Of a stretch of DNA of 20,878 bases, positions 2,901-20,878 are shown one piece after another. The stretch comes from a virus: positions 1-20,878 of IMG/VR virus record IMGVR_UViG_3300009519_000017; one strand, written 5' to 3'. Both the position numbers and the translations under genes were made by a program. Positions within the stretch are counted from its first letter, which is position 1, and every line of letters starts with the position of its first letter. The notes under the pieces are model-generated. The model did not search any database. It saw only the letters and a program-made list of their open reading frames with translations, and was not told where the DNA came from.

Positions 2901-3073
2901 GACTGTGAATGACTGTGATTGCGACTGTGATTCGTTTTCTGTTTAGAATCAATGACTTATGGTGCTTTGGTGCTGAATCACAGTCATCTCTCTCTTACAC
3001 CCCTACTCTAACGTATTGAAAAAATTGGGTCGACGTTAGGGGGTCCGTGTAATAGAGGACTGTGACTGTGATT
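2901..3073. repeat. cluster of GACTGTGA(A/T)T repeats between primase and polymerase genes
   Basis: Copies on the plus strand are at 2901-2910 (one base different), 2911-2920, 2923-2932 and 3064-3073, with a partial copy at 3058-3063. An inverted copy, AATCACAGTC, is at 2976-2985. The rest of the 199-base gap holds an inverted repeat CTAACGT/ACGTTAG (3008-3014 and 3033-3039) and no gene. Repeated decamers beside replication genes suggest an origin or a binding site for a replication or regulatory protein. That role is inference; the repeats themselves are plain in the sequence. Confidence 0.7.
3005..3033 (-). promoter_or_regulatory. weak promoter candidate upstream of the DNA polymerase gene
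   Basis: On the minus strand TCGACC (3033-3028) and TAGAGT (3010-3005) are separated by 17 bases; each matches the sigma70 consensus at four of six positions. The candidate overlaps the CTAACGT/ACGTTAG inverted repeat, so a binding protein there could control it. It is much weaker than the promoters at 436-408 and 5788-5760. Confidence 0.3.
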
Positions 3074-5130
3074 CAATCATTTTCCCCCTTCATCGCAAAA
3101 ATATCAGTCTTTTTGTGTGTCTTACCAACCAAATACACCGTTCCGTTTGTCAGCATTGCCTTCCAAGCACGCCCAAATTCATCATGAGTGCCGTCGCGGT
3201 TCACATTGCAAAAATCTATGACACGCATCTTGGTGATGTTCTCTTTTTTCTTGAACGCCTTCGAAATTAGTGTGCACATCTGAGATACAGGGCTGACCTG
3301 ATCGGCGGGCCATATCTCTCTTCGCAGCATCAGTTCGTGCGCGGCCCAATCAGCAGCCTTCTTGACCTGCGCCTCTGTAATCACATTCGGGTCTTCAGAA
3401 AATAATGTACGGAGTAGAAGATCGCGCTTGAAATGCGAGTCGAGTCTGCCACAAAAGTGGTGCCCGAATTCAGAATCCGCATCCATCTCCGCATGAAGCC
3501 ACTTGTCGAATTCCAATCGCAGTTCCTTCGCCGCATCGGTCTCGGTCGGGATATGTGGTCCCGCGCCGGGCGTCCCAAACATCGTAGAAAGACTTGTCCA
3601 GCGGTCGAGCATTTTCTGCTGTATCGGATTTACAATCTCGGGGTTCATGTCATCCCAGTCACCAACCTTTGCAGGCTTCTCGACATAGGACAGCACGCAT
3701 CGTGACAGGAAGCCGTCGTCACCAAGCGCCTTGCCACTCAGCGCGCGAGTGAATGACTCTTTGGTGAAGCCGCCTGTGATCGTGACGCTGACGTTCTTGA
3801 CAGTCCCGCCTGCGTTCGTGCAACTCCCCGCGGATATTTCTGCGCCATCGTACAAATTGAGCATTCTCGTATTGAGTGTTGAGTTTTGACCTGCGCCCTT
3901 TTCGAACAACAAACGCATCTCATCGAAGTGCGTCACGACACGACGATCTTCCAGACCGTTCTCGACGAACTTCTTGACAAGGAACTCTCCGGACGAATAC
4001 CATCCGGGGTCACCCATGAAGATACCAGCCTTCTCAATATAGTTTGCCATTCCGTATTTACTGACGCGCTTCCAAGACTCACCCTTACCAGAGTCGCCGG
4101 GGGCGATCAGGAAGCTGTAATTGCGCATGTGCAGGTCGGGGTGGTGCGGGAAACCAACCATGCCATCAAGTGAGGCACCAAGCACCGCTTTGATTGTGGC
4201 GCGCACGAATGACGGCGGGATGTGTGTCCCATCAGCCAGAGCGTGTGTCATCTCTCCAATCCAATCACCTTCGAGTAATTCGTCGGGGAGGTTGGCAATC
4301 GAGTTGTCAATCTTTTTGTTGCTGCCGCCGAATGTGATGACGGGCGTCAGTTCTGCGGCGTCGAACTTCGTGACAGCGGCGTCGGCGAGATTCTGAATCT
4401 TGTCATCCGGGTAGTTCTCTCCGTCTTCGCAATTGTTCTTGAGGAAGTTCTTGAGACCAGCATAAATGCCGTCGCGGTCCATCCCCATGTTGCGGAGTTT
4501 TCCCGCCATGCTTTGACAGTGTATCCATCGGCTTCCCGCAGGGATCAGCTCGCCGCCCGCGGATTTCGGCGTGTACTCCAGTTTCTTCTTTTCAAAAATC
4601 AGAAGCCCTTCAGGTAGCGGGGCAATGTCAATGTCTTCGAGAATTTCGTATTTCTCACCGCTGTCGGGGTGAACACTTCCGGCCCCGCAAACATACCCAC
4701 CCTTGCCCTTCAACTCACCAGTGACGTTTCCAATACTGAATGCTGTGGTGGGAATTGCCTTGGAGTAGTACATCTGAATGCCGTACTCAGGCTCGCCGGT
4801 CGTCTTGTTCTTGCGGCGTCCTGTACGTACAGTGTATGTTGGCGGAAGATTGTTTTCCGTCCGCCACGCGACAAACTCTTCGTAATTAGCCAGACCGTGG
4901 TCGGCGTCGAGTACCGTGATTCCGCTGGTCTCGCATCCCACACCGTAGTTGGCCTCAGTGCCATCATGCCATGCCTTGAGGGCGATCTCAGGAACTCGGG
5001 ACGCGGAGTGACACGCGTTAGGCGAGTAGCTGGCCCATGGGGCTTTGTCGTGAGGGAGGCAAGTCAATATTGCGAACCCTCGTGATAGAGCGTCTTCGGC
5101 GCTCTTCAGTAGCTCTTCGTTCAAACTCAT
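3073..5130 (-). CDS. primase-polymerase / helicase-like fusion protein
   Basis: This protein probably primes DNA synthesis and unwinds DNA at the phage fork. The N-terminal third looks like a bifunctional primase-polymerase (prim-pol) domain. GVGCETSGITVLDADHG places the metal-binding pair at D75 and D77, and YVCGAGSVHPDSGEKYE (146-162) matches the conserved His motif of that fold. The C-terminal part carries a P-loop, APGDSGKGES (343-352), and a Walker B-like VVTHFDE (398-404), typical of phage primase-associated ATPases. At 685 residues both domains fit on one chain. The ATG at 5130 follows AAAGG about seven bases upstream. An intrinsic terminator precedes the gene, so its expression probably depends on readthrough from the SSB-like gene. 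It ends inside the GACTGTGATT repeat cluster. The exact helicase superfamily is uncertain. Confidence 0.85.
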   Translation of the reverse strand: MSLNEELLKSAEDALSRGFAILTCLPHDKAPWASYSPNACHSASRVPEIALKAWHDGTEANYGVGCETSGITVLDADHGLANYEEFVAWRTENNLPPTYTVRTGRRKNKTTGEPEYGIQMYYSKAIPTTAFSIGNVTGELKGKGGYVCGAGSVHPDSGEKYEILEDIDIAPLPEGLLIFEKKKLEYTPKSAGGELIPAGSRWIHCQSMAGKLRNMGMDRDGIYAGLKNFLKNNCEDGENYPDDKIQNLADAAVTKFDAAELTPVITFGGSNKKIDNSIANLPDELLEGDWIGEMTHALADGTHIPPSFVRATIKAVLGASLDGMVGFPHHPDLHMRNYSFLIAPGDSGKGESWKRVSKYGMANYIEKAGIFMGDPGWYSSGEFLVKKFVENGLEDRRVVTHFDEMRLLFEKGAGQNSTLNTRMLNLYDGAEISAGSCTNAGGTVKNVSVTITGGFTKESFTRALSGKALGDDGFLSRCVLSYVEKPAKVGDWDDMNPEIVNPIQQKMLDRWTSLSTMFGTPGAGPHIPTETDAAKELRLEFDKWLHAEMDADSEFGHHFCGRLDSHFKRDLLLRTLFSEDPNVITEAQVKKAADWAAHELMLRREIWPADQVSPVSQMCTLISKAFKKKENITKMRVIDFCNVNRDGTHDEFGRAWKAMLTNGTVYLVGKTHKKTDIFAMKGEND

Positions 5131-7825: not shown

Positions 7826-8559
7826 ACATAGTGCGTAGTATGTGGACCGAAAAAACAATCGACCTGATGGAAAGGTTGTCCATCTCTTCGTACTTATACC
7901 ACGGTGTTCCTTATCACCTATACCTCTACAACGACGTGACGGGAATACCAGACGGCGTGGTGATCCACGATGCGCGAGAGATTCTGCCGCAATCGGAAAT
8001 ACAAAACTTTCGCCACCCAGAACAGTTCGCAGATTATTTTCGGTACGCCATGCTGCTGATGGAGGGCGGCTGGCACGCAGACATGGATTCTGTCTGTCTG
8101 AAACCGTTTGACATAAGTACGCCGTACGCTTTCGTGTTGGACAACGTTGACGAGTTTTATGTCAGCGGTTGCTTCATGAAGACGCCGAAGGGCGCTCCCA
8201 TAATGCAGCACTGCTTCAAGACAGTTTCGGACATGAGCGTATCTGACCGCGTAAACAAAGGCTATCAGGATGTCGGGCCGAAGTTGGTACAAAGTTCAGT
8301 CCTAAAATTCGGCATGACAAGTTACCTTCAGCCGAAAGCCGCGTTCGACCCAGTCCCTTGGAACCGAATCAAAGATATCGTGAACCCCACAATAAAGTGG
8401 GATTTGACAAAATCCTACGCAGTTCATCTTCGCGGCAGTATCTGGGACAATGGACCGAACGCCGCCGCGGGTATTCTTCCCTCGGGAAAGAAACTCGACA
8501 GCACTGCGAGCTATCCGGCTGACTGCCTTTACGAACAATTGAAGAGGAGATATTTGTGA
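7822..8559 (+). CDS. GT32-like glycosyltransferase with DXD motif
   Basis: This is a DXD-type sugar transferase resembling the capsular-polysaccharide/Och1-like GT32 group. The signature is FADYFRYAMLLMEGGWHADMD followed by SVCLKPFD, with the metal-binding D87-x-D89. The 245 residues form one soluble domain without membrane segments. It starts at ATG 7822 within an ATGA overlap with the GT31-like gene and has AAGGAG six bases upstream. It ends in a GTGA overlap with the double GT2 gene. Tight coupling suggests the three enzymes build one glycan stepwise. The frame extends upstream into the previous gene, but no start there has a ribosome binding site. Confidence 0.8.
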   Translation: MNIVRSMWTEKTIDLMERLSISSYLYHGVPYHLYLYNDVTGIPDGVVIHDAREILPQSEIQNFRHPEQFADYFRYAMLLMEGGWHADMDSVCLKPFDISTPYAFVLDNVDEFYVSGCFMKTPKGAPIMQHCFKTVSDMSVSDRVNKGYQDVGPKLVQSSVLKFGMTSYLQPKAAFDPVPWNRIKDIVNPTIKWDLTKSYAVHLRGSIWDNGPNAAAGILPSGKKLDSTASYPADCLYEQLKRRYL

Positions 8560-13371: not shown

Positions 13372-15375
13372 GTGAAGATAGATAGCCTGCAAACCATGCT
13401 GGACAAACATCTCCAAGACAAGAACTACCAGTATCGAGACAAGTCTTGGGAAGAGATCGACGCAATGGCCCAGCAGAGTTTTTCTAAACTCTCTCCAGCT
13501 CACCAGTTGAAAGTCCTCAAAGTCGGCGATAAGTACGGCATGCCTAAGGACAACAAGTTGACGATGCGCGTTCGTTTCATGGCGCAAACCAATCTGTTCT
13601 TTTTGTGCAAACTACTTGGCTACGATGCCATGACAGACCATGAGTATGTCTGGACTGACGGCAAGGTACATAACACGCATGAGGAAATTTGCAACGAATT
13701 CTTCGTTCGCAAAGACCCGACGTTGCCGAACTTCAAAGCATTTGCGGCGAAAGAGAACTACATCGAAAAGAAAGAGCGTCTTCTGCTCGTGCCTCGCGGC
13801 GGCTTCAAGAGCACCATGGATATGGCGGATTGCGTTCAGTGGGTATGCTGCTTCCCTGAAGTGACGATCCTCATTCTGACAGGCGTGCTCGACCTCGCAG
13901 AAGATTTTGTAAGTGAGATCAAAGGACATTTTGTACTCGAAGACGCTGACAGTTCGTGCATGAACCTCTTCACCCTCAAAAAAGCCCTGCAGGCGAAGAC
14001 GATGCGCGATGGCGATCCTAGCATCTTTCAAATCGTTTTCCCCGAACACTGCATCCCCAAGGACGACGGCAAGGGCTATGAATATCAGACGCCCGCGGTC
14101 TCCCAGTTGGAGAAAGAGTGCACGGTATTCGCGGCATCAATCGAACAGAACCTCGCAGGCTGGCACGTCTGTATCATGAAGTTGGACGACGTTGTCACGA
14201 ACGAGAACAGTTTGACAGTTGACCGACTGAAGAAGGTCAATAAGCAGGTCAGCATCAACCAAGCCATGCTGCATCCTTACGGTTTTTACGACAAGATTGG
14301 GACTTGGTACGATTCAGAAGATACGTACGGACAGGATATCAAGAACTCGAAGAAGTACGCCGAAGAGGGCGAAGACTTCCCGATGAAGATTTACATCCGT
14401 GCTGCTTGGTGGGCCAACGAAGCAGCTGTTAAGGCAGGAAAAATTGAAGAGGAAATGGTCGAATCTGACTGCGGCCTCTGGTTCAATGAGGAAAACAATC
14501 CTCACGCACTGACTTATCAGTTCCTTCGCACCAAGAAAAAGACCGACGAGTACTTCGCAATCAAGTACCTCAACGATCCGACACAGATGCACGTCGTCAA
14601 GTTCCCACGCGAACTTTTGATACGACGCACAATCCAAGCGAATCTCATGCCCGGAACTGGCATGATAGTTACGACCGTCGACACAGCCTATTCGACGAAG
14701 AGTTGGGCAGACTATACGGTCATCATTACGGCACTTATTTACGGCGGTCGATTTTACGTTATCGATATGAACCGCGGAAGATTCAACGAGTATGAGTTAC
14801 CTGCAGTCATCGCCGCTAATGTGCTGAAGTGGAAGCCTAGGCGAGTTTGTATTGAGGAGTCTGTCGGCGTCAAATGGCTCGGCAGAGAAGTCTATCGCGA
14901 GATGGACAAATTGAAGGTGCGCGCCAGCATAGAATTCGTCTCTTTGGGATTGGGCAACAAAGCCAATTCGAAGATGATGAAGGCGAAGCCGGTTCTACGA
15001 TACCTCGGAGACGAGCGCCTTCTGTTCGTCAACTCCTGTCCCTCGCTCGAAGAACTTTACGACGAACTTTCGAAGTTCGGAACCGCGGCGGCAACGCACG
15101 ACGACATTGTCGATGCTCTTGCGCTGCTCGTCAACCAGTTTTCTGGGTACGCAGAGATGGAAGCAAAAATCACTGCACAGCAGGACACATACTGTCCTGA
15201 CCCGCTGGGCAAGGCTAAATACGAACAGACCTACGGGCTGGGTGCTTACGCAAAGTTCAATGCACAGCAGATGGTTCAGGAAAATCCTGACATGAGTCTC
15301 TATGAGGCGATCAACGCTGTCAAAGAGGACACGTACGATCCGTCAGCGACCGACCCACTGGCAGACTTGTTTTAA
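13372..15375 (+). CDS. terL: terminase large subunit (packaging ATPase/nuclease)
   Basis: This is the DNA packaging motor: ATP-driven translocation into the prohead and cleavage of the concatemer. The ATPase half has a Walker A-like LLLVPRGGFKST (P141-T148), a non-classical P-loop common in terminases. The Walker B-like MKLDDVV has D272 and D273. The RNase H-like nuclease half has TTVDTAYS (D437), CIEES (E495, E496) and HDDIVDAL (D577, D578, D581). All expected metal-binding acids are present. At 667 residues it is on the long side. It starts at GTG 13372 behind GGAGGAG; no in-frame ATG nearby has a comparable site. It is followed nine bases later by the portal gene, the usual phage order. 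Confidence 0.93.
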   Translation: MKIDSLQTMLDKHLQDKNYQYRDKSWEEIDAMAQQSFSKLSPAHQLKVLKVGDKYGMPKDNKLTMRVRFMAQTNLFFLCKLLGYDAMTDHEYVWTDGKVHNTHEEICNEFFVRKDPTLPNFKAFAAKENYIEKKERLLLVPRGGFKSTMDMADCVQWVCCFPEVTILILTGVLDLAEDFVSEIKGHFVLEDADSSCMNLFTLKKALQAKTMRDGDPSIFQIVFPEHCIPKDDGKGYEYQTPAVSQLEKECTVFAASIEQNLAGWHVCIMKLDDVVTNENSLTVDRLKKVNKQVSINQAMLHPYGFYDKIGTWYDSEDTYGQDIKNSKKYAEEGEDFPMKIYIRAAWWANEAAVKAGKIEEEMVESDCGLWFNEENNPHALTYQFLRTKKKTDEYFAIKYLNDPTQMHVVKFPRELLIRRTIQANLMPGTGMIVTTVDTAYSTKSWADYTVIITALIYGGRFYVIDMNRGRFNEYELPAVIAANVLKWKPRRVCIEESVGVKWLGREVYREMDKLKVRASIEFVSLGLGNKANSKMMKAKPVLRYLGDERLLFVNSCPSLEELYDELSKFGTAAATHDDIVDALALLVNQFSGYAEMEAKITAQQDTYCPDPLGKAKYEQTYGLGAYAKFNAQQMVQENPDMSLYEAINAVKEDTYDPSATDPLADLF

Positions 15376-15384
15376 CGGAGAGAT

Positions 15385-17571
15385 ATGGCAGACACAGTTG
15401 AAACATCGCCCGCGAAGATCGAAACACTTGGAATCGCTGATCTGGAAAACTCCGAAGGTAATCCCAACAGGGATTTGACCAACGAGGATTTTAACAAAGA
15501 CGGCGACATCCTGACCATCGGCGGCGACCTAGCACTCGTCGTGCAATCCGCTGTGGCTGCGAAGGCGTACATCTCAAACAGACAGTGGACATTGCTTTGG
15601 AGAGATGCTGACCTTCTGTACCAATCGCCGCGCCCAATGACCGTGTACGAAAACACGTACGTCCTTGAGCCCAACGTCCAGCGCTTTACCGTTGCGAAGG
15701 TGTGCAACGCGGTCGTACCTCAACTCCACAAGGGTCTCTTTTACGACGATCCTCCAATGATTCTTCGACCTACAGGTGGAACCAGCAATGACCCCGTCGC
15801 AGCTGGTAAGACCCAACAGATCGTGGACGCAAAGACTACACTGCTCTCATACATCCTGCGCGACTGTGAATTCAAAACCCAGACTAAATGGGGCTTGGAG
15901 CAGATGGCGCATCTCGGAACTGGTATTTGGAAGTGGGGATACGACTGGAAGACGATCCAGTACTACACTAGGACAGCCTCGGTCGTAAATCTTCCGGGCA
16001 CCGACGGCACGCCAGACGACAGTGTCGTCACCGACGAACCACCCAATATCAAGGTTCGTGAGAAGATCGTTCCGCTGCCCGTATTCGAATTTCGTCCGCT
16101 CGACAAAGTTCTAGTTGACCCCCAGTTAAACGTCTCAGATATTCGCAAAGCCGCGTGGGTCATAGACGTTCGCTACATGGACTTCTACCAAATGAAGGAA
16201 CTGCGCGATGCCGTCGTACAGGCATTGGCTGATGGCGAAAAGGGTGAAGCAATAAAAGGCTGGCGCTTTCCGGGGGAGGAAGACCTAAAGAAATTCTGGG
16301 CCACAGGAAAAGAACAGGCCCAACTACTGGAGACGGAACAAGCCTCTTACATCGAAGGTGTCGTTCACCACGCGGAGAAGGTCAACATCAGAGTAAGCCC
16401 TGACCCGCTGCGCCGCAAGCTTGAGATCATGGAGTATTGGGACAAAGATCGAAAGATCATGGTTCTCAATCAAAAGACCGTCATCTTTACAGGCAAGAAC
16501 GAGTTCAAACAGGTACCGTTTCTTTCCGCCAACTGGTGGAACCGACCAAAGGCATTCTATGGCATGGGTCTCGGGCTGATCGTTGGGCAAAACCAACGTG
16601 TCGACCAAGGCACCATCAATGCCATTCTGAAAATCCTTTCGTTCGGCGTCAACCCGTTGTACCTACGCGACCGTGATGACAACGCCCCGACACAAATGAT
16701 TCGGTCGGGCATTGGAAAAATTCTCACCGTCAAGGACACCGAAAAAGCATATCGTCTGATGGAAACTCCGAAAGTACCGTCAGATGTTTGGAGTGCACTC
16801 AAGGAATCGGAGCAGGCTACAGAGTCCTCGTCTGGTGCAGATCAGCAGTTAGTGCAGGGGTCTACCGCAGGTCCGCGTTCCTCAATGGGGCGAACGGCTG
16901 GCGGTGCAAACATTCTCGCGGGTGCGAGCGCAACACGTCTCGATGGCCCGCTGGACAACTTCATCGAACAGGTGTTCAAACCGTTCCTCAGCATCCTCGA
17001 CATGTTGATCTTCAACATAATGTCGGACAAAGCCATACTTGCCGTTCTTGGAAAAGAGCGGGGGGAAGCGTATGCGAAGCACATTGACATGCAAGAGTTC
17101 CACGATGCTCAAATCGAGTACGAGGTTCTTGCAGGTTCTAGCTTGGCAGCTAAGCGTACGATGGCCCAGTCAATGGTCATGTTGACTCAGATTCTGGACA
17201 ACCCACAGATACAAGAAAGTCTGGCGGACATCAACGAAGAGTACATTGACTTCAAGCCAATTATCAACATGTGGATGGAAGCGTCCGAATGGAAGAACGG
17301 ACAGGACATCATCAAGCCTCTGACCGACGCCATGAAGAAAAAGCGTGCCGCCAGTTCGAAGGCCGCACAGATGCAGATGCAGACACAGGCTAAGGCACAA
17401 GGCGACCAACAGAAGTTCCAACAAAAACAACAATTAGCCGACCAAGAATCGGACAACCGAATCAAACGCGACATCATACGTGAGTCCGCAAGGGCAAACG
17501 GTATGAGCGAAGCGGTTGAAGGCACGCCTAGCCCTCAGGGGCTTGAAGGTCAACAGCCTACGGTTGAGTAA
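15385..17571 (+). CDS. portal protein, large P22-like type
   Basis: This is the dodecameric head-tail connector through which DNA enters. At 728 residues it matches the large P22-type portals rather than HK97 types of about 400 residues. Identifying stretches include TGIWKWGYDW, VLVDPQL followed by DIRKAAWVIDV, and QVPFLSANWWNRPKAFYGMG. Also seen are GLIVGQNQRVDQGTINAILK and the conserved wing and crown transition around GGANILAGASATRLDGPLDN. The C-terminus has a Gln/Lys-rich coiled-coil stretch (about 645-690), where P22-like portals form a barrel. The ATG at 15385 follows GGAGAG. The neighbours (terminase before, scaffold and coat after) agree with this assignment. Confidence 0.9.
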   Translation: MADTVETSPAKIETLGIADLENSEGNPNRDLTNEDFNKDGDILTIGGDLALVVQSAVAAKAYISNRQWTLLWRDADLLYQSPRPMTVYENTYVLEPNVQRFTVAKVCNAVVPQLHKGLFYDDPPMILRPTGGTSNDPVAAGKTQQIVDAKTTLLSYILRDCEFKTQTKWGLEQMAHLGTGIWKWGYDWKTIQYYTRTASVVNLPGTDGTPDDSVVTDEPPNIKVREKIVPLPVFEFRPLDKVLVDPQLNVSDIRKAAWVIDVRYMDFYQMKELRDAVVQALADGEKGEAIKGWRFPGEEDLKKFWATGKEQAQLLETEQASYIEGVVHHAEKVNIRVSPDPLRRKLEIMEYWDKDRKIMVLNQKTVIFTGKNEFKQVPFLSANWWNRPKAFYGMGLGLIVGQNQRVDQGTINAILKILSFGVNPLYLRDRDDNAPTQMIRSGIGKILTVKDTEKAYRLMETPKVPSDVWSALKESEQATESSSGADQQLVQGSTAGPRSSMGRTAGGANILAGASATRLDGPLDNFIEQVFKPFLSILDMLIFNIMSDKAILAVLGKERGEAYAKHIDMQEFHDAQIEYEVLAGSSLAAKRTMAQSMVMLTQILDNPQIQESLADINEEYIDFKPIINMWMEASEWKNGQDIIKPLTDAMKKKRAASSKAAQMQMQTQAKAQGDQQKFQQKQQLADQESDNRIKRDIIRESARANGMSEAVEGTPSPQGLEGQQPTVE

Positions 17572-17997: not shown

Positions 17998-19134
17998 ATG
18001 CCAATGAACAGTTCAGTTCGTAACCGTCTTAGTCGAATGGAGCCGGAAGTGATCGCGCCCACAGCTGCGCCCGTCGCACCCGGCGATAACACACTTGACG
18101 ATCCGAGTGACCCGCGCATCACGTCCGCGGTTGCTCCCATAGTTGCGCATAGCGAGCCCATAGTTGCGCATAGCGATCAGGTAGTTGCGCCTACGGATGC
18201 ATTGCCAGAGCTTCGATACGAGTACCAGCCGACAGATATTGCCGGTGCGAAGTTGGGTGGAAAACAAGTCATCGTCTATCATACGCCGGACGAGTTGGCG
18301 CAAAAACTCACAGCTCAAAATGTCGAACTCGTGCGCAAGTTGCGCGAGGTCACCCGCAAACAAACGCTGGGGATCGTGGACGATACGCCACTGCCCGACG
18401 ACGCACAGCGCTTTGAGTCATTTGTTGAGTTTAAGCCGCGCGAGTTGTCCACCGAAGAGCGGTTCAATCTTTCGCAAGACTTGAACGATCCGTCGAAGTC
18501 GCTAGAAGCGATTGACACGATGTTCGAAGCCAGCGTCGGCATGAAGCCTGACGTACTGCGTCAAACACTGAACAACCAACAGTTGCTCATGTTGCAGTTG
18601 ACGGCAAAGTCGAACTACGACATTTTCGAGAAACAGACACCGGAGTTTTATCCGTGTGCTGAAAACAAACAAGTACTGACAGCATGGATGTTCAAGAAGA
18701 AGCTAAATCCTACTGTCGCGATGTTCAACTTAGCTTTTTCAACGCTGAAGGGAGCCGGATTGCTCCTCGACAGCCCTATCGTGCGTGAGGTAACTCCCGC
18801 GCCCGTGCCGTCTGTACCCACAGTGGGTCCGACTGCACCCGCGCCGAGTACGGAACCAAAAGTATCGCCGGTTCCAGTTGCAACCGAGAGTCGGATTACT
18901 CCCGTCGAGCAGCCGCAAACAAAGCGCCAAGTAAGAGTCCCGTCCGGTCTGAATAGCAGCAATGCTTCAGACTCCACAACAAGTGGTGTGACAACTGACA
19001 TTACTTTGGATGATATTGATAACATGCCTTCCGAAGAGTATAAGAAAAAACTTAGAAACCCGGCTTTTGCAAAGTTGGTGAACGACCTGCAACGTGCAGC
19101 GGACGCCAGAAAGCGTGCACCAGTATCAGCTTAA
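17998..19134 (+). CDS. scaffolding-like protein upstream of major capsid protein
   Basis: This protein is probably the internal scaffold that directs coat assembly. The evidence is position immediately before the coat gene, high charge and low complexity, and layout. A Pro/Ala/Val-rich N-terminus (1-75) includes the tandem heptapeptide PIVAHS(E/D). A helical middle (about 95-255) follows, with DELAQKLTAQNVELVRKLRE as a likely coiled coil. Then comes a Pro/Thr/Val-rich linker (about 260-320) and a basic C-terminal helical segment ending LQRAADARKRAP. Basic C-terminal helices bind coat protein in P22-type scaffolds. The 378 residues fit. The ATG at 17998 follows AGGAGGAG. A minor structural protein cannot be ruled out. 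Confidence 0.65.
   Translation: MPMNSSVRNRLSRMEPEVIAPTAAPVAPGDNTLDDPSDPRITSAVAPIVAHSEPIVAHSDQVVAPTDALPELRYEYQPTDIAGAKLGGKQVIVYHTPDELAQKLTAQNVELVRKLREVTRKQTLGIVDDTPLPDDAQRFESFVEFKPRELSTEERFNLSQDLNDPSKSLEAIDTMFEASVGMKPDVLRQTLNNQQLLMLQLTAKSNYDIFEKQTPEFYPCAENKQVLTAWMFKKKLNPTVAMFNLAFSTLKGAGLLLDSPIVREVTPAPVPSVPTVGPTAPAPSTEPKVSPVPVATESRITPVEQPQTKRQVRVPSGLNSSNASDSTTSGVTTDITLDDIDNMPSEEYKKKLRNPAFAKLVNDLQRAADARKRAPVSA
18136..18198 (+). repeat. 21-base tandem repeat inside the scaffold-like gene
   Basis: CCCATAGTTGCGCATAGCGA(G/T) occurs at 18136-18156 and 18157-18177, differing only in the last base. A third, decayed copy is at 18178-18198. Each unit encodes seven residues (P-I-V-A-H-S-E/D), so the frame is kept. 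The near identity of the first two units suggests a recent duplication. Confidence 0.85.
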
Positions 19135-19149
19135 CCTGAAGGATAGATT

Positions 19150-19305
19150 ATGTCTTTCTCTCCTGCTGGAAACCAGCAATCCAACCTGCCTCAATCCACG
19201 GTGAAGTATTATGATAAACGGTTCCGTGAGAACCTGAAGGCGCAAACCCCGTTCGTCGCATGCGCAGAGCGCCTTGACCTGCCCATGAAGAGCGGTAACC
19301 AGTAT
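19150..19305 (+). CDS. major capsid protein, exon 1 (codons 1-52)
   Basis: This is the N-terminal arm of the coat protein. ATG at 19150 follows GAAGGA. The exon encodes MSFSPAGNQQSN... through LDLPMKSGNQY (52 residues), and the genomic frame then hits TAA at 19309-19311. The sequence YYDKRFRENLKAQTPFVACA followed by LPMKSG resembles the N-terminus of N4-gp56-type (HK97-fold) coat proteins. In these, a beta strand and an aromatic run should follow, and this is found only after 650 intervening bases at 19962. The exon's last nine bases (19297-19305) pair with 19320-19328 to form intron helix P1, ending in the U.G pair expected at a 5' splice site. Without splicing the product would be a 53-residue fragment. 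Confidence 0.85.
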
Positions 19306-19961
19306 ATCTAAAACATTTTGTACTGGTTGTAAAAATAAATCTTGCTAAATCGGTGGACCCCTGCTATAGTAAATAGTAGACAATACCGAGGAAAGACCCC
19401 ATGCCTACATAATATCCGAAAGGAGGCAAAATGTCAGATAAAGCGAAGTATGGCTACCTCGCAGGCATTCTAGATGGTGAAGGTTGCATCACAATCGGTG
19501 CTGGTCAAAAAGAGACCTGCATAAATTACAACTCAATCGTGATGGTACAAAGCACGAGTAAGAAGTTGATTGATTGGCTGCAAAGTAATTTTGGCGGAAG
19601 CGTATACCTGTCAAAGAAAGCGACAGCGAAAACGAAAGAAGCCTACATGTGGCGAGTGCTAAAGAAGAAGGATATAGAGATTCTTCTATTAGCAACGCTC
19701 CCTTACCTAGTTGTGAAACGGGAACAAGCAAAAATCTTGCTGAATTTCGTTAGACTCGCTCCTGAAGCGAACAACGAATTGCGTCGAGTTTATTGGCAAC
19801 AGTTAAGAATTTTGAATTCTCGTGGGGTATCCCTAACGACTAATACGCAAGAGACTCCGCAGGGAGTCATGATAGAGTCTGAACTGCATGGTGACATGCA
19901 GAGCGACCTGATGGTGACATCAGGGACTTTCGAGTCTTAAACCCAAAACACATTAGAAATG
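19306..19961 (+). other. group I self-splicing intron in the major capsid gene
   Basis: Pairings seen by eye: P1, 19297-19305 with 19320-19328 (8 Watson-Crick pairs plus U19305.G19320). P3, UCUUGC 19340-19345 / GCAAGA 19847-19852. P4, UCGGU 19350-19354 / ACCGA 19385-19389. P5, 19361-19367 / 19373-19379. P6, ACCCCAU 19396-19402 / GUGGGGU 19822-19828. P7, GACU 19838-19841 / AGUC 19876-19879. P8, GACUCC 19853-19858 / GGAGUC 19863-19868 with a GCAG loop. P9, 19884-19890 / 19895-19901 and P9.1, 19907-19913 / 19918-19924, both perfect 7-bp stems with GUGA loops. GACU-UUCG-AGUC follows at 19925-19936. The order matches a group IA core like that of T4 td. The 5' site is firm; the 3' end is given as the terminal G at 19961, with alternatives at 19955 or 19956. 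Confidence 0.9.
19431..19940 (+). CDS. intron-encoded LAGLIDADG homing endonuclease
   Basis: This protein would cut intron-less alleles of the capsid gene so that repair copies the intron in. The single LAGLIDADG motif is YLAGILDGEGCITIG (about 9-23), with the metal-binding acid in DGEG. The body has two beta/helix segments (SIVMVQSTSKKLIDWLQSNF, then YMWRVLKKKDIEILL). With one motif in 169 residues it should act as a homodimer. It sits in the loop of intron helix P6 and has its own AAAGGAGG four bases before ATG 19431. The last 40 or so codons (from NSRGVSL) double as intron P6', P7, P3', P8 and P9. That tail is probably dictated by the RNA and lies beyond the usual domain. It may also act as a maturase, which is untested. 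Confidence 0.88.
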   Translation: MSDKAKYGYLAGILDGEGCITIGAGQKETCINYNSIVMVQSTSKKLIDWLQSNFGGSVYLSKKATAKTKEAYMWRVLKKKDIEILLLATLPYLVVKREQAKILLNFVRLAPEANNELRRVYWQQLRILNSRGVSLTTNTQETPQGVMIESELHGDMQSDLMVTSGTFES

Positions 19962-20798
19962 TTCATGTACGTGCCGCTGGCTGCTAACACCAACCAGACG
20001 ACCGAAGGAACTGTGGGCCCGTCCCTGTCCGTCAACGTCCTGAATACGACTGCCACTATCGGCGAGTACGCTGACTACGCGAACTTTTCGTCCCTGTCTC
20101 TCGCAACCGCGATTGACCAGACCGTCGAGAACGTTGCGAAAGAAATGTCGTATCGTCTTGGCGAGTCTCTGAGCGCATTGGTTCGCGCAACTGCTGACGG
20201 TGCATCCAGCATCGATGCCAGCGTGTTGGTGGAACTGGCTGCGACAACCACGGCGAGCTTCACCGCTCTGTCGCTGTCTCAGATTCGTAACAGCGTCCAG
20301 TCTATGGCTGGCCGTTCGATCCGTCCGTTCGACGAGGCTTCCAAGTCCTTTGTCGGCGTCATCCATCCGTTCGCCCTTGGCGACGTGACGGCTGACAACA
20401 GCAACGATTCGCCTATCGACATCCTGAAGCACACCCCTGTGGGTCTCGCCCGCATGGAAGAGCTGGTCAGCGTCGATCTGACGGAAGTCATTGAAATCCC
20501 GACCACGGGCGTTCATTTCTTCCAGTCTCCGTTGGTCACCAAGACCATCAACTACAGTGGCGTGACTGGCCTGACGGCCCTTCGCACCTACATCTTCGGT
20601 AAGGACGGTATCTTCGCCATTAACCTTGGAGCGCAGGGCGACACCACTTACGGAGACGGCGAGTGGCGCAACATCAAGTGCAACATCGTGCAGAACGCTG
20701 AGCCGACGGTTGCAGACCCTGAAGGGTTGATCCCCGGATATACTGAGTCTGTCCGGGTTACATCTGGTAAAGCGATGGCTGCTGTAGCCGGTCGCTAG
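19962..20798 (+). CDS. major capsid protein, exon 2 (C-terminal body)
   Basis: This is the main HK97-fold body of the coat protein. Translation of the exon gives FMYVPLAANTNQTTEG, then ATIGEYADYANFSSLSLATA, and ends AMAAVAGR with TAG at 20796-20798. Joined to exon 1 in frame the protein has about 330 residues, similar to small N4-gp56-type coat proteins. Exon 2 has no ribosome binding site before the ATGs at 19959 or 19965, so independent translation is unlikely. If the splice lies at 19955/19956 instead, the protein gains two residues, (E or K)-M, before FMY. That would restore the eight-residue SG-to-Tyr spacing I remember for the family. The gene follows the scaffold-like gene, the expected place. 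Confidence 0.85.
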   Translation, partial: FMYVPLAANTNQTTEGTVGPSLSVNVLNTTATIGEYADYANFSSLSLATAIDQTVENVAKEMSYRLGESLSALVRATADGASSIDASVLVELAATTTASFTALSLSQIRNSVQSMAGRSIRPFDEASKSFVGVIHPFALGDVTADNSNDSPIDILKHTPVGLARMEELVSVDLTEVIEIPTTGVHFFQSPLVTKTINYSGVTGLTALRTYIFGKDGIFAINLGAQGDTTYGDGEWRNIKCNIVQNAEPTVADPEGLIPGYTESVRVTSGKAMAAVAGR

Positions 20799-20837
20799 TT
20801 GGGACATCCTATCGAGTTCATTTTACGACCTCGCTAG

Positions 20838-20870
20838 GACCAGATACCACGATTAACATACTGGTCGTGG
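20838..20870 (+). other. interleaved inverted repeats downstream of the capsid gene
   Basis: ACCAG (20839-20843) can pair with CTGGT (20861-20865), and CCACGA (20847-20852) with TCGTGG (20865-20870). The two pairings cross and share one base, so they form either a pseudoknot or alternative hairpins. The sequence ends eight bases later, so a following T-run cannot be seen. A terminator or mRNA 3' stabilising structure after the abundant coat message is plausible. Otherwise 20799-20878 holds nothing recognisable. Confidence 0.35.
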
Positions 20871-20878
20871 GTAAATTC

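Follow-up and report, generated by a model that had tools for sequence, protein, structure and literature searches.

Guide-only micro-introns upstream of group I introns in a phage major head protein gene: candidates for splicing by a neighbouring ribozyme

Group I introns in phage capsid genes have been described before. An intron in the capsid gene of mycobacteriophage LittleE, which its authors consider most likely group I, is spliced in infected cells, and Tuc2009 is named as a further case (PMC3706429). Phages with many group I introns are also known (PMC12363816, PMC11878797). Tiny group I introns of 63-75 nucleotides (nt) occur in the small subunit ribosomal RNA (rRNA) of Phialophora (PMC3160393), and engineered group I ribozymes, the spliceozymes, have been tested on introns of 64 and 100 nt, the 100-nt intron being removed both in vitro and in E. 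coli (PMC4094466). Capsid-gene introns, multi-intron phages, tiny fungal introns and engineered removal of core-less introns are thus known already, and a natural core-less intron served by a neighbouring group I intron is described in none of the matches listed from the open-licence literature. In this study, we analysed 20,878 nt of viral DNA (IMG/VR record IMGVR_UViG_3300009519_000017, positions 1 to 20,878; hereafter the window), in which the major head protein (coat) gene has three interruptions: a group I intron containing a putative endonuclease gene (intron A), a micro-intron without a recognizable core (micro-intron F), and a second group I intron (intron G).

Micro-intron F (20740..20801, + strand, 62 nt) consists of little more than a guide. 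Its P1 pairing joins the exon end CCCGGAU to GUCCGGG (20751-20757) with U.G at the cut, its P10 pairing joins GGAC (20747-20750) to GUCU (20802-20805), and its terminal base is G. Removal of F brings back the conserved GGA TGG ACA TCC, encoding GWTS, whereas the unspliced frame continues past PG as YTESVRVTSGKAMAAVAGR to a stop at 20796-20798. The sequence-only reading of this stretch had let the coat gene end at that stop, at 20798; the stop in fact sits inside the insert, and yet another intron begins at 20854. With all three inserts removed, the junctions read CCCGGAT/GGACATCC for F, CAGTAT/GAAATG for A and ACGAT/CAGAATG for G (slash, position of the cut). Among relatives, the last codons of the F read-through, which ends ..MAAVAGR, differ largely at third positions, and a second, unspliced isoform with this C-terminus is possible.

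F belongs to a class. Loci from all scans (L numbers) gave 114 distinct coat gene sequences, of which many are nearly identical and some are truncated at a contig end; one that begins within an intron (L173) was set aside, leaving 113 assessed genes. Inserts were called by a protein-to-DNA alignment blind to splice signals, using a profile of 47 distinct uninterrupted proteins, and six calls were dropped before counting, namely position 2 of L174, an N-terminal alignment artefact, and five in-frame indels of 24-26 nt. The inserts were assigned to 22 positions and fell into three size classes: micro-introns of 33-98 nt, full introns without room for an endonuclease (193-254 nt) and full introns with such room (566-1202 nt). 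At least one full group I intron was present in 52 of the 113 genes and none in the other 61, a few of which are contig-cut; the maximum was six inserts, in L084. The 25 distinct micro-introns occupy sites 20, 22, 30, 52, 53, 299, 301, 306, 313, and 326.

All 25 have a U before and a G at the end of the insert (in five, once the register is moved by one base, with no effect on the protein), and all have a P1 with U.G at the cut together with a P10. Of the first 18 tested, all but the L174 artefact (5 of 11) form 10-11 of the 11 guide pairs. For each of these 17, no more than 6 of 2000 shuffled inserts equalled the observed guide pairing, and in an exon-swap control guides from other sites reached 10 pairs in 2 of 250 cases, from a pool that still contained the L174 artefact. 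In a later set of 23, every micro-intron contained an in-frame stop and formed 10 or more of the 11 guide pairs, and the length was not divisible by three in 17. At site 313 the guides track synonymous exon changes, GGT, GGC, and GGA being met by A, G, and T, and CCC and CCT by G and A. P10 is longer in micro-introns (mean 6.3, n=25) than in full introns (mean 3.4, for the 59 of 66 in which a guide was found; p 2e-5), whereas P1 is equal, and a longer P10 would be expected if the 3' site were held by the guide alone, untethered to a core. The P7 motif GACT..AGTC was found in none of the 25 micro-intron tails but in 65 of 67 full introns, a test that is lenient for long introns, and 16 of the 25 tails are no longer than 31 nt. 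As a side observation, AGTC, the motif of the 3' strand of P7, occurs in 8 of 22 tails (three near-copies omitted) against 2.6 expected, a value reached in 5 of 1000 shuffles, and GACT in one; since other 4-mers score alike and the tails are related, this is only a lead.

Of the 52 genes that have a full group I intron, 26 also have a micro-intron, against none of the 61 that lack a full intron. Moreover, in all 21 architectures entering the order test, from which L091 was left out because its contig ends, each micro-intron lies directly 5' of a full intron with 18-111 nt of exon between them. The arrangement involves 15 distinct site pairs, and in L084 micro-intron and full intron alternate three times. 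At six sites (20, 22, 30, 52, 53, and 326) the insert is a micro-intron or a full intron depending on the gene, which suggests that an upstream intron loses its core once a downstream one is present.

When 20 micro-bearing genes were each compared with the nearest relative below 97.5% identity, near-identical genes being counted repeatedly, codon differences were 737 synonymous and 120 non-synonymous 5' of the micro-intron, 271 and 12 in the exon between micro-intron and full intron, and 988 and 134 3' of the full intron. By this measure the coding sequence downstream of the inserts is under purifying selection. Spliced frames were free of stops in 88 of 88 genes, which is weak evidence because the alignment penalises stops and only full-length sequences were counted. 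No second complete coat gene was found in 12 micro-bearing records, none of which is rated at least 90% complete; two of them hold a weak 36-residue coat match besides the main locus. In L002, a downstream frame (8149-8250) shows 41% identity to coat residues 292-325 over 34 residues.

The best explanation, which we regard as probable, is that the downstream ribozyme splices both the micro-intron and itself in cis, and that the parental inserts spread by homing. Introns A and G would excise themselves as group I ribozymes. Micro-intron F appears to keep what a ribozyme reads, that is, the P1/P10 guide to both exons, the U.G at the 5' cut and the terminal G, and would have lost its own catalytic core; the full intron just downstream would dock the P1/P10 of F and splice it, either before excising itself or while the core is still tethered. 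An upstream core would already have excised itself by the time a downstream micro-intron is transcribed. A need for a core that is made later than the micro-intron and has not yet come free would account for the order, with micro-introns upstream and full introns downstream. The parental inserts may have spread via LAGLIDADG homing. With the substrate parts kept, the catalytic part gone, and a ribozyme following in each uncut case, we infer that the downstream core splices both. That these are natural spliceozymes in the stricter sense, guide-only introns that depend on the next downstream core in the same transcript, has in our judgement a little better than an even chance.

This explanation leans on the full introns being group I ribozymes. 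Intron A (19306..19955, + strand, 650 nt, ending ..ATTA, with a putative LAGLIDADG gene inside) was delimited by spliced alignment and empty sites. The sequence-only reading had proposed 52 coat codons, a stop at 19309, a group I core with P1 at the exon boundary and then the coat body, and all of this can be read in the sequence. An in-frame TAA (19309-19311) ends the exon 1 reading frame. The guide (19312-19330) pairs with both exons: its P1 strand (19320..19330, + strand) with exon 19295-19305, ten pairs beyond the U.G formed at the cut by U19305 and G19320, and its P10 strand (19312..19319, + strand) with the start of exon 2 (19956-19963) in eight contiguous pairs. Cutting out exactly 650 nt restores the protein, and alignment to uninterrupted relatives, which that reading had proposed as a check, gave the exact empty site CAGTAY/GARATG in most of them, the protein reading mostly SGNQY-EM-FMYVPL.

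The core elements of intron A, all on the + strand, are P3 (5' strand TCTTGC, 19340..19345, pairing with 19847-19852), P4 (19351-19354 with 19385-19388), readable directly in the sequence, P7 (5' strand GACT, 19838..19841, with AGTC at 19876-19879) and the P9 hairpin CTGCAT/ATGCAG (19884..19901; 19884-19889 with 19896-19901). Covariation was assessed over P3, P4, P7, P9, and P9.1 in ten homologous introns of fourteen extracted, with the endonuclease gene excised. The 26 pairs are 98.8% paired, 14 of them change on both sides, and none of 500 shuffles matches this, while slid controls are only 30-43% paired. Five of the six P3 pairs are compensatory among the ten introns and four of the six P9 pairs change on both sides. 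P3, which encloses the LAGLIDADG gene, is TCTTGC/GCAAGA in the window and CTTCAC/GTGAAG, CTTGAC/GTCAAG or TTCGGC/GCCGAA elsewhere, and P7 is invariant, so that covariation neither supports nor contradicts it. A covariance-model search, also among the proposed checks, gave a divided answer: the window has no match to Rfam Intron_gpI at the curated cut-off of 50 bits and reaches 29 bits (E 3e-5) in permissive mode, but introns at a site 5 nt away pass it (L018 and L094, which share the intron, 59.5 bits; L240, 55.0 bits), being the sole matches over the cut-off, in one of seven and two of eleven loci searched. Short parts of the L018 core resemble sequence in 255 phage records (137 of Escherichia phages), none covering 80% of the query. 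On the core, empty sites, and guides we assign intron A to the group I ribozymes, with self-splicing as its predicted activity.

Intron G begins at 20854 (20854..20878, + strand, group I without an endonuclease gene) and runs off the window; in L002, identical over the overlap, it is 198 nt long, of which 173 nt lie beyond the window. Its type constitutes a second group I type of the coat gene, as judged from covariation of the P3-P7 core: in 15 introns the pairs are 97.2% paired, 20 of 29 show both-side changes, all seven pairs of P3 do so, and none of 500 shuffles matches. Intron G is on this basis a group I ribozyme, presumably one that excises itself. Over 53 nt this type is similar to sequence from Brochothrix phage genes for ribonucleotide reductase, and Rfam fails to recognise most introns of the type. 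The claim that a group I intron splits the major capsid gene therefore stands, on empty sites, 61 genes without a full intron and core covariation.

Several other explanations of the micro-introns have to be weighed against splicing by the downstream core. They might be autonomous minimal group I ribozymes of the Phialophora rRNA type, helped by flanking RNA. The P1 and P10 of all 25 would suit this, and a 67-nt fungal intron spliced in vitro with flanks of about 300 nt, but poorly or not at all with about 20 (PMC3160393). The fungal introns are, however, drawn with a P7 and a middle pairing, whereas the GACT..AGTC motif is missing from all 25 tails here, many of which are very short, and none of the 61 genes lacking a full intron has a micro-intron; we consider autonomy unlikely. 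On the P7 motif, the class does not fit the tiny self-splicing introns of that type. Splicing might also occur in trans, with a group I core from anywhere in the genome (such as an excised intron), an intron-encoded maturase or a host factor as the agent. A precedent is given by the engineered ribozymes that act on introns in trans (PMC4094466), and in the record of L161 Rfam places additional group I matches outside the coat gene. Trans splicing would leave the fixed order and the 18-111 nt spacing unexplained, and seven micro-bearing loci (L018, L094, L148, L159, L161, L232, and L355) have no coat-gene intron long enough for an endonuclease gene; in our estimate it is quite unlikely.

Two further explanations dispense with splicing of the micro-introns altogether, and we hold both to be very improbable. 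One is ribosome hopping over the inserts, akin to the programmed bypassing of T4 gene 60: the micro-inserts overlap known bypass elements in size and all 23 tested contain in-frame stops. Yet the take-off codon equals the landing triplet in none of the 23, which speaks against a bypass element; glycine codons stand at both places at site 313 alone (GGN/GGG), and a hop there would lose the conserved Trp. Moreover, bypassing gives no role to a P1 containing U.G or to P10. Alternatively, the micro-inserts might be dead scars carried along by the homing of a neighbour, the coat protein being truncated or re-initiated. Close intron-free relatives exist (L008 for the window, L030 for L288), which suggests fast insert turnover, and co-conversion would place scars near a homing intron. 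Against this stand the purifying selection on the downstream coding sequence, the nearly perfect guides and the upstream position of the micro-intron in all 21 architectures.

Some observations weigh against splicing of micro-introns by a downstream core, or weaken the case for it. The within-gene permutation fractions for the micro-full order multiply to 9.4e-9, but shared ancestry of genes and architectures means that this is no true probability and serves as a guide only. Co-conversion with a nearby homing intron would explain the proximity of the two inserts, though not their fixed order. For the Phialophora introns of 63-75 nt, splicing is reported, and the accessible text speaks of no helper intron (PMC3160393). 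Within a site, guides fit their own exons little better than those of sister genes (own and sister, out of 11: 10.3 and 9.1 at site 313, 10.5 and 9.5 at site 20, 11 and 10.5 at site 22). The longest pairing of a micro-intron tail with the intron downstream is at chance, averaging 5.96 against 5.95 in shuffles with none of 25 significant at 5%, so that no tether was found. In three of 12 micro-bearing records (L232, L148, and L159) no Rfam group I match was obtained at E 0.01, the support for their full introns being core covariation of the intron G type. Finally, intron A breaks the rule of a terminal G.

A terminal G is nearly universal in group I introns. The last base of intron A, in contrast, is A19955, as placed by the protein frame and P10 alike. 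The tiny fungal introns provide a further exception, with a terminal U (omega-U; PMC3160393). Of the 66 distinct full introns of the coat gene, 55 have the form U..G, two of them (site 292) once the register is moved by two bases; the other 11, found at sites 30, 52, and 90, have the form U..A. For sites 30 and 90 this register was picked by P1/P10 fit, the protein being identical either way. U..A introns were noted in the window (19955-19956), L171, L172, L174, L240, L055, L079, L268, L364, and L368. P10 averages 6.6 in A-ending full introns and 3.7 in G-ending ones (p 0.0015). It could be argued, given how nearly universal the terminal G is, that intron A is really cut at a nearby G, 19956 or 19961. 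However, a cut at G19956 shifts the frame and one at G19961 loses the conserved Glu-Met, and five distinct introns at site 30 with a final A are followed by C, so that no G adjoins the cut; we therefore think a cut at G rather unlikely and an omega-A in intron A likely. Intron A is still filed as group I because core features decide.

The putative LAGLIDADG homing endonuclease gene of intron A (19431..19940, + strand, 169 amino acids) starts between P4 and P7 and overlaps P7-P9. Its product matches PF00961 at E 1.6e-4 (23.0 bits, cut-off 23.1) and phrog_5046 at E 4.3e-19; the PHROG label is HNH, while Pfam places it with LAGLIDADG. The sequence-only reading was silent on this frame as well as on micro-intron F and intron G. 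Its suggestion of homing into a conserved coding site fits the 22 insert positions and the close intron-free relatives, which are 95.9-97.1% identical over the spliced coding sequence to the intron-bearing window type, L068, and L288 (window exons 95.9% to L008; L288 96.6% to L030). Among 85 complete coding sequences, none that is uninterrupted is identical to the joined exons of an interrupted one, as a transcript-like copy would be, the nearest being 97.1%. Two site-30 introns, of 1202 nt in L055 and 989 nt in L079, contain two endonuclease-like stretches in tandem (L055:4050-4913 and L079:3007-3882), each with 28-32% identity to the LAGLIDADG protein of the window. L051 has two LAGLIDADG-like frames within the coat gene and a third (2933-3472) just 5' of its start.

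The coat gene itself is made up, on the + strand, of exon 1 (19150..19305; start ATG 19150, 52 codons ending ..SGNQY), exon 2 (19956..20739, in frame with exon 1) and exon 3 (20802..20853), the latter two from spliced alignment. Its identity as a phage major head protein gene rests on profile matches to phrog_1357 (exon 1, E 0.004; exon 2, E 7.4e-7) and on gene order, the coat gene being preceded by terminase (13372-15375), portal (15385-17571) and an unassigned gene (17998-19134). The order terminase, portal, head resembles that of Tunturiibacter phage Tunturi_3, whose gp6, annotated as major head protein, is 80.5% identical to exon 2. Tunturi_3 is a 97.6-kb podovirus of an Acidobacteriota host, and the word intron is absent from the accessible main text of its description (PMC11924767). 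In most uninterrupted relatives the full protein has 343 residues and ends ..PGWTSYRVHFTTSLGPDTTIRMRQIDAASAIS or nearly so. An AlphaFold model of the coat protein reached a predicted local distance difference test score (pLDDT) of 29.5 and was not used.

Contigs L002-L006 match the window exactly where they overlap it, and L007 has a single base change. The sole match in genome_contigs (L300) is a 59.9-kb contig filed under a Bacteroidetes metagenome-assembled genome, with an uninterrupted coat gene; its resemblance to Tunturi_3 suggests a mis-binned phage contig. The portal gene has inserts of about 200-230 nt in five loci (L047, L060, L085, L088, and L435), in none of which a portal micro-insert was seen, and the portal stretch of the L161 record gives weak Rfam group I matches. 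As to the view that a capsid gene is an unusual host for a group I intron, it no longer holds generally, with such introns in print for LittleE and Tuc2009 and in 52 of 113 genes of this clade.

If the downstream core does splice its neighbour, natural group I introns can shed their core and live on that of another intron, much as spliceosomal introns depend on shared RNAs. One RNA enzyme serving two introns would parallel, among group I introns, the way in which introns and spliceosome share the work, and the nearest models that we found for the core-sharing step are engineered ribozymes. Intron searches based on the core would then be overlooking a whole kind of intron, and soil-phage coat genes would be wrongly annotated as broken. 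With as many as six inserts in an essential capsid gene, splicing efficiency is put to a strong natural test.

The inserts described here can be set beside several known systems. The bypass element of T4 gene 60 is a non-coding insert of about 50 nt in a phage coding gene and is linked to a homing endonuclease; there, however, the insert is skipped by the ribosome and the take-off and landing codons are identical. Group III introns of Euglena chloroplasts are core-less and degenerate and are thought to depend on catalytic parts supplied elsewhere, but they derive from group II. The LittleE intron resembles intron A in interrupting a major capsid gene, in having a LAGLIDADG-like frame and in the U before it, and it ends in G; it is a single insert with the endonuclease on the opposite strand, whereas up to six inserts, tiny ones included, occur in this clade. 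The Phialophora introns share with the micro-introns their very small size, the G.U of P1 at the 5' cut and P10, and with intron A a final base other than G (U there, A here). They are drawn with a P7 and a pairing to the 3' exon, and they lie in rRNA at one position, while the micro-introns lie in a protein gene at several sites, always beside a full intron and without the P7 signature. Closest in principle are the spliceozymes, in which a group I ribozyme takes a core-less intron of about 100 nt out of an mRNA. These are artificial, act in trans, and recognise their target through the 5' end of the ribozyme and P9.2; here, the intron itself carries the guide, and the core that would serve it lies downstream in the same transcript.

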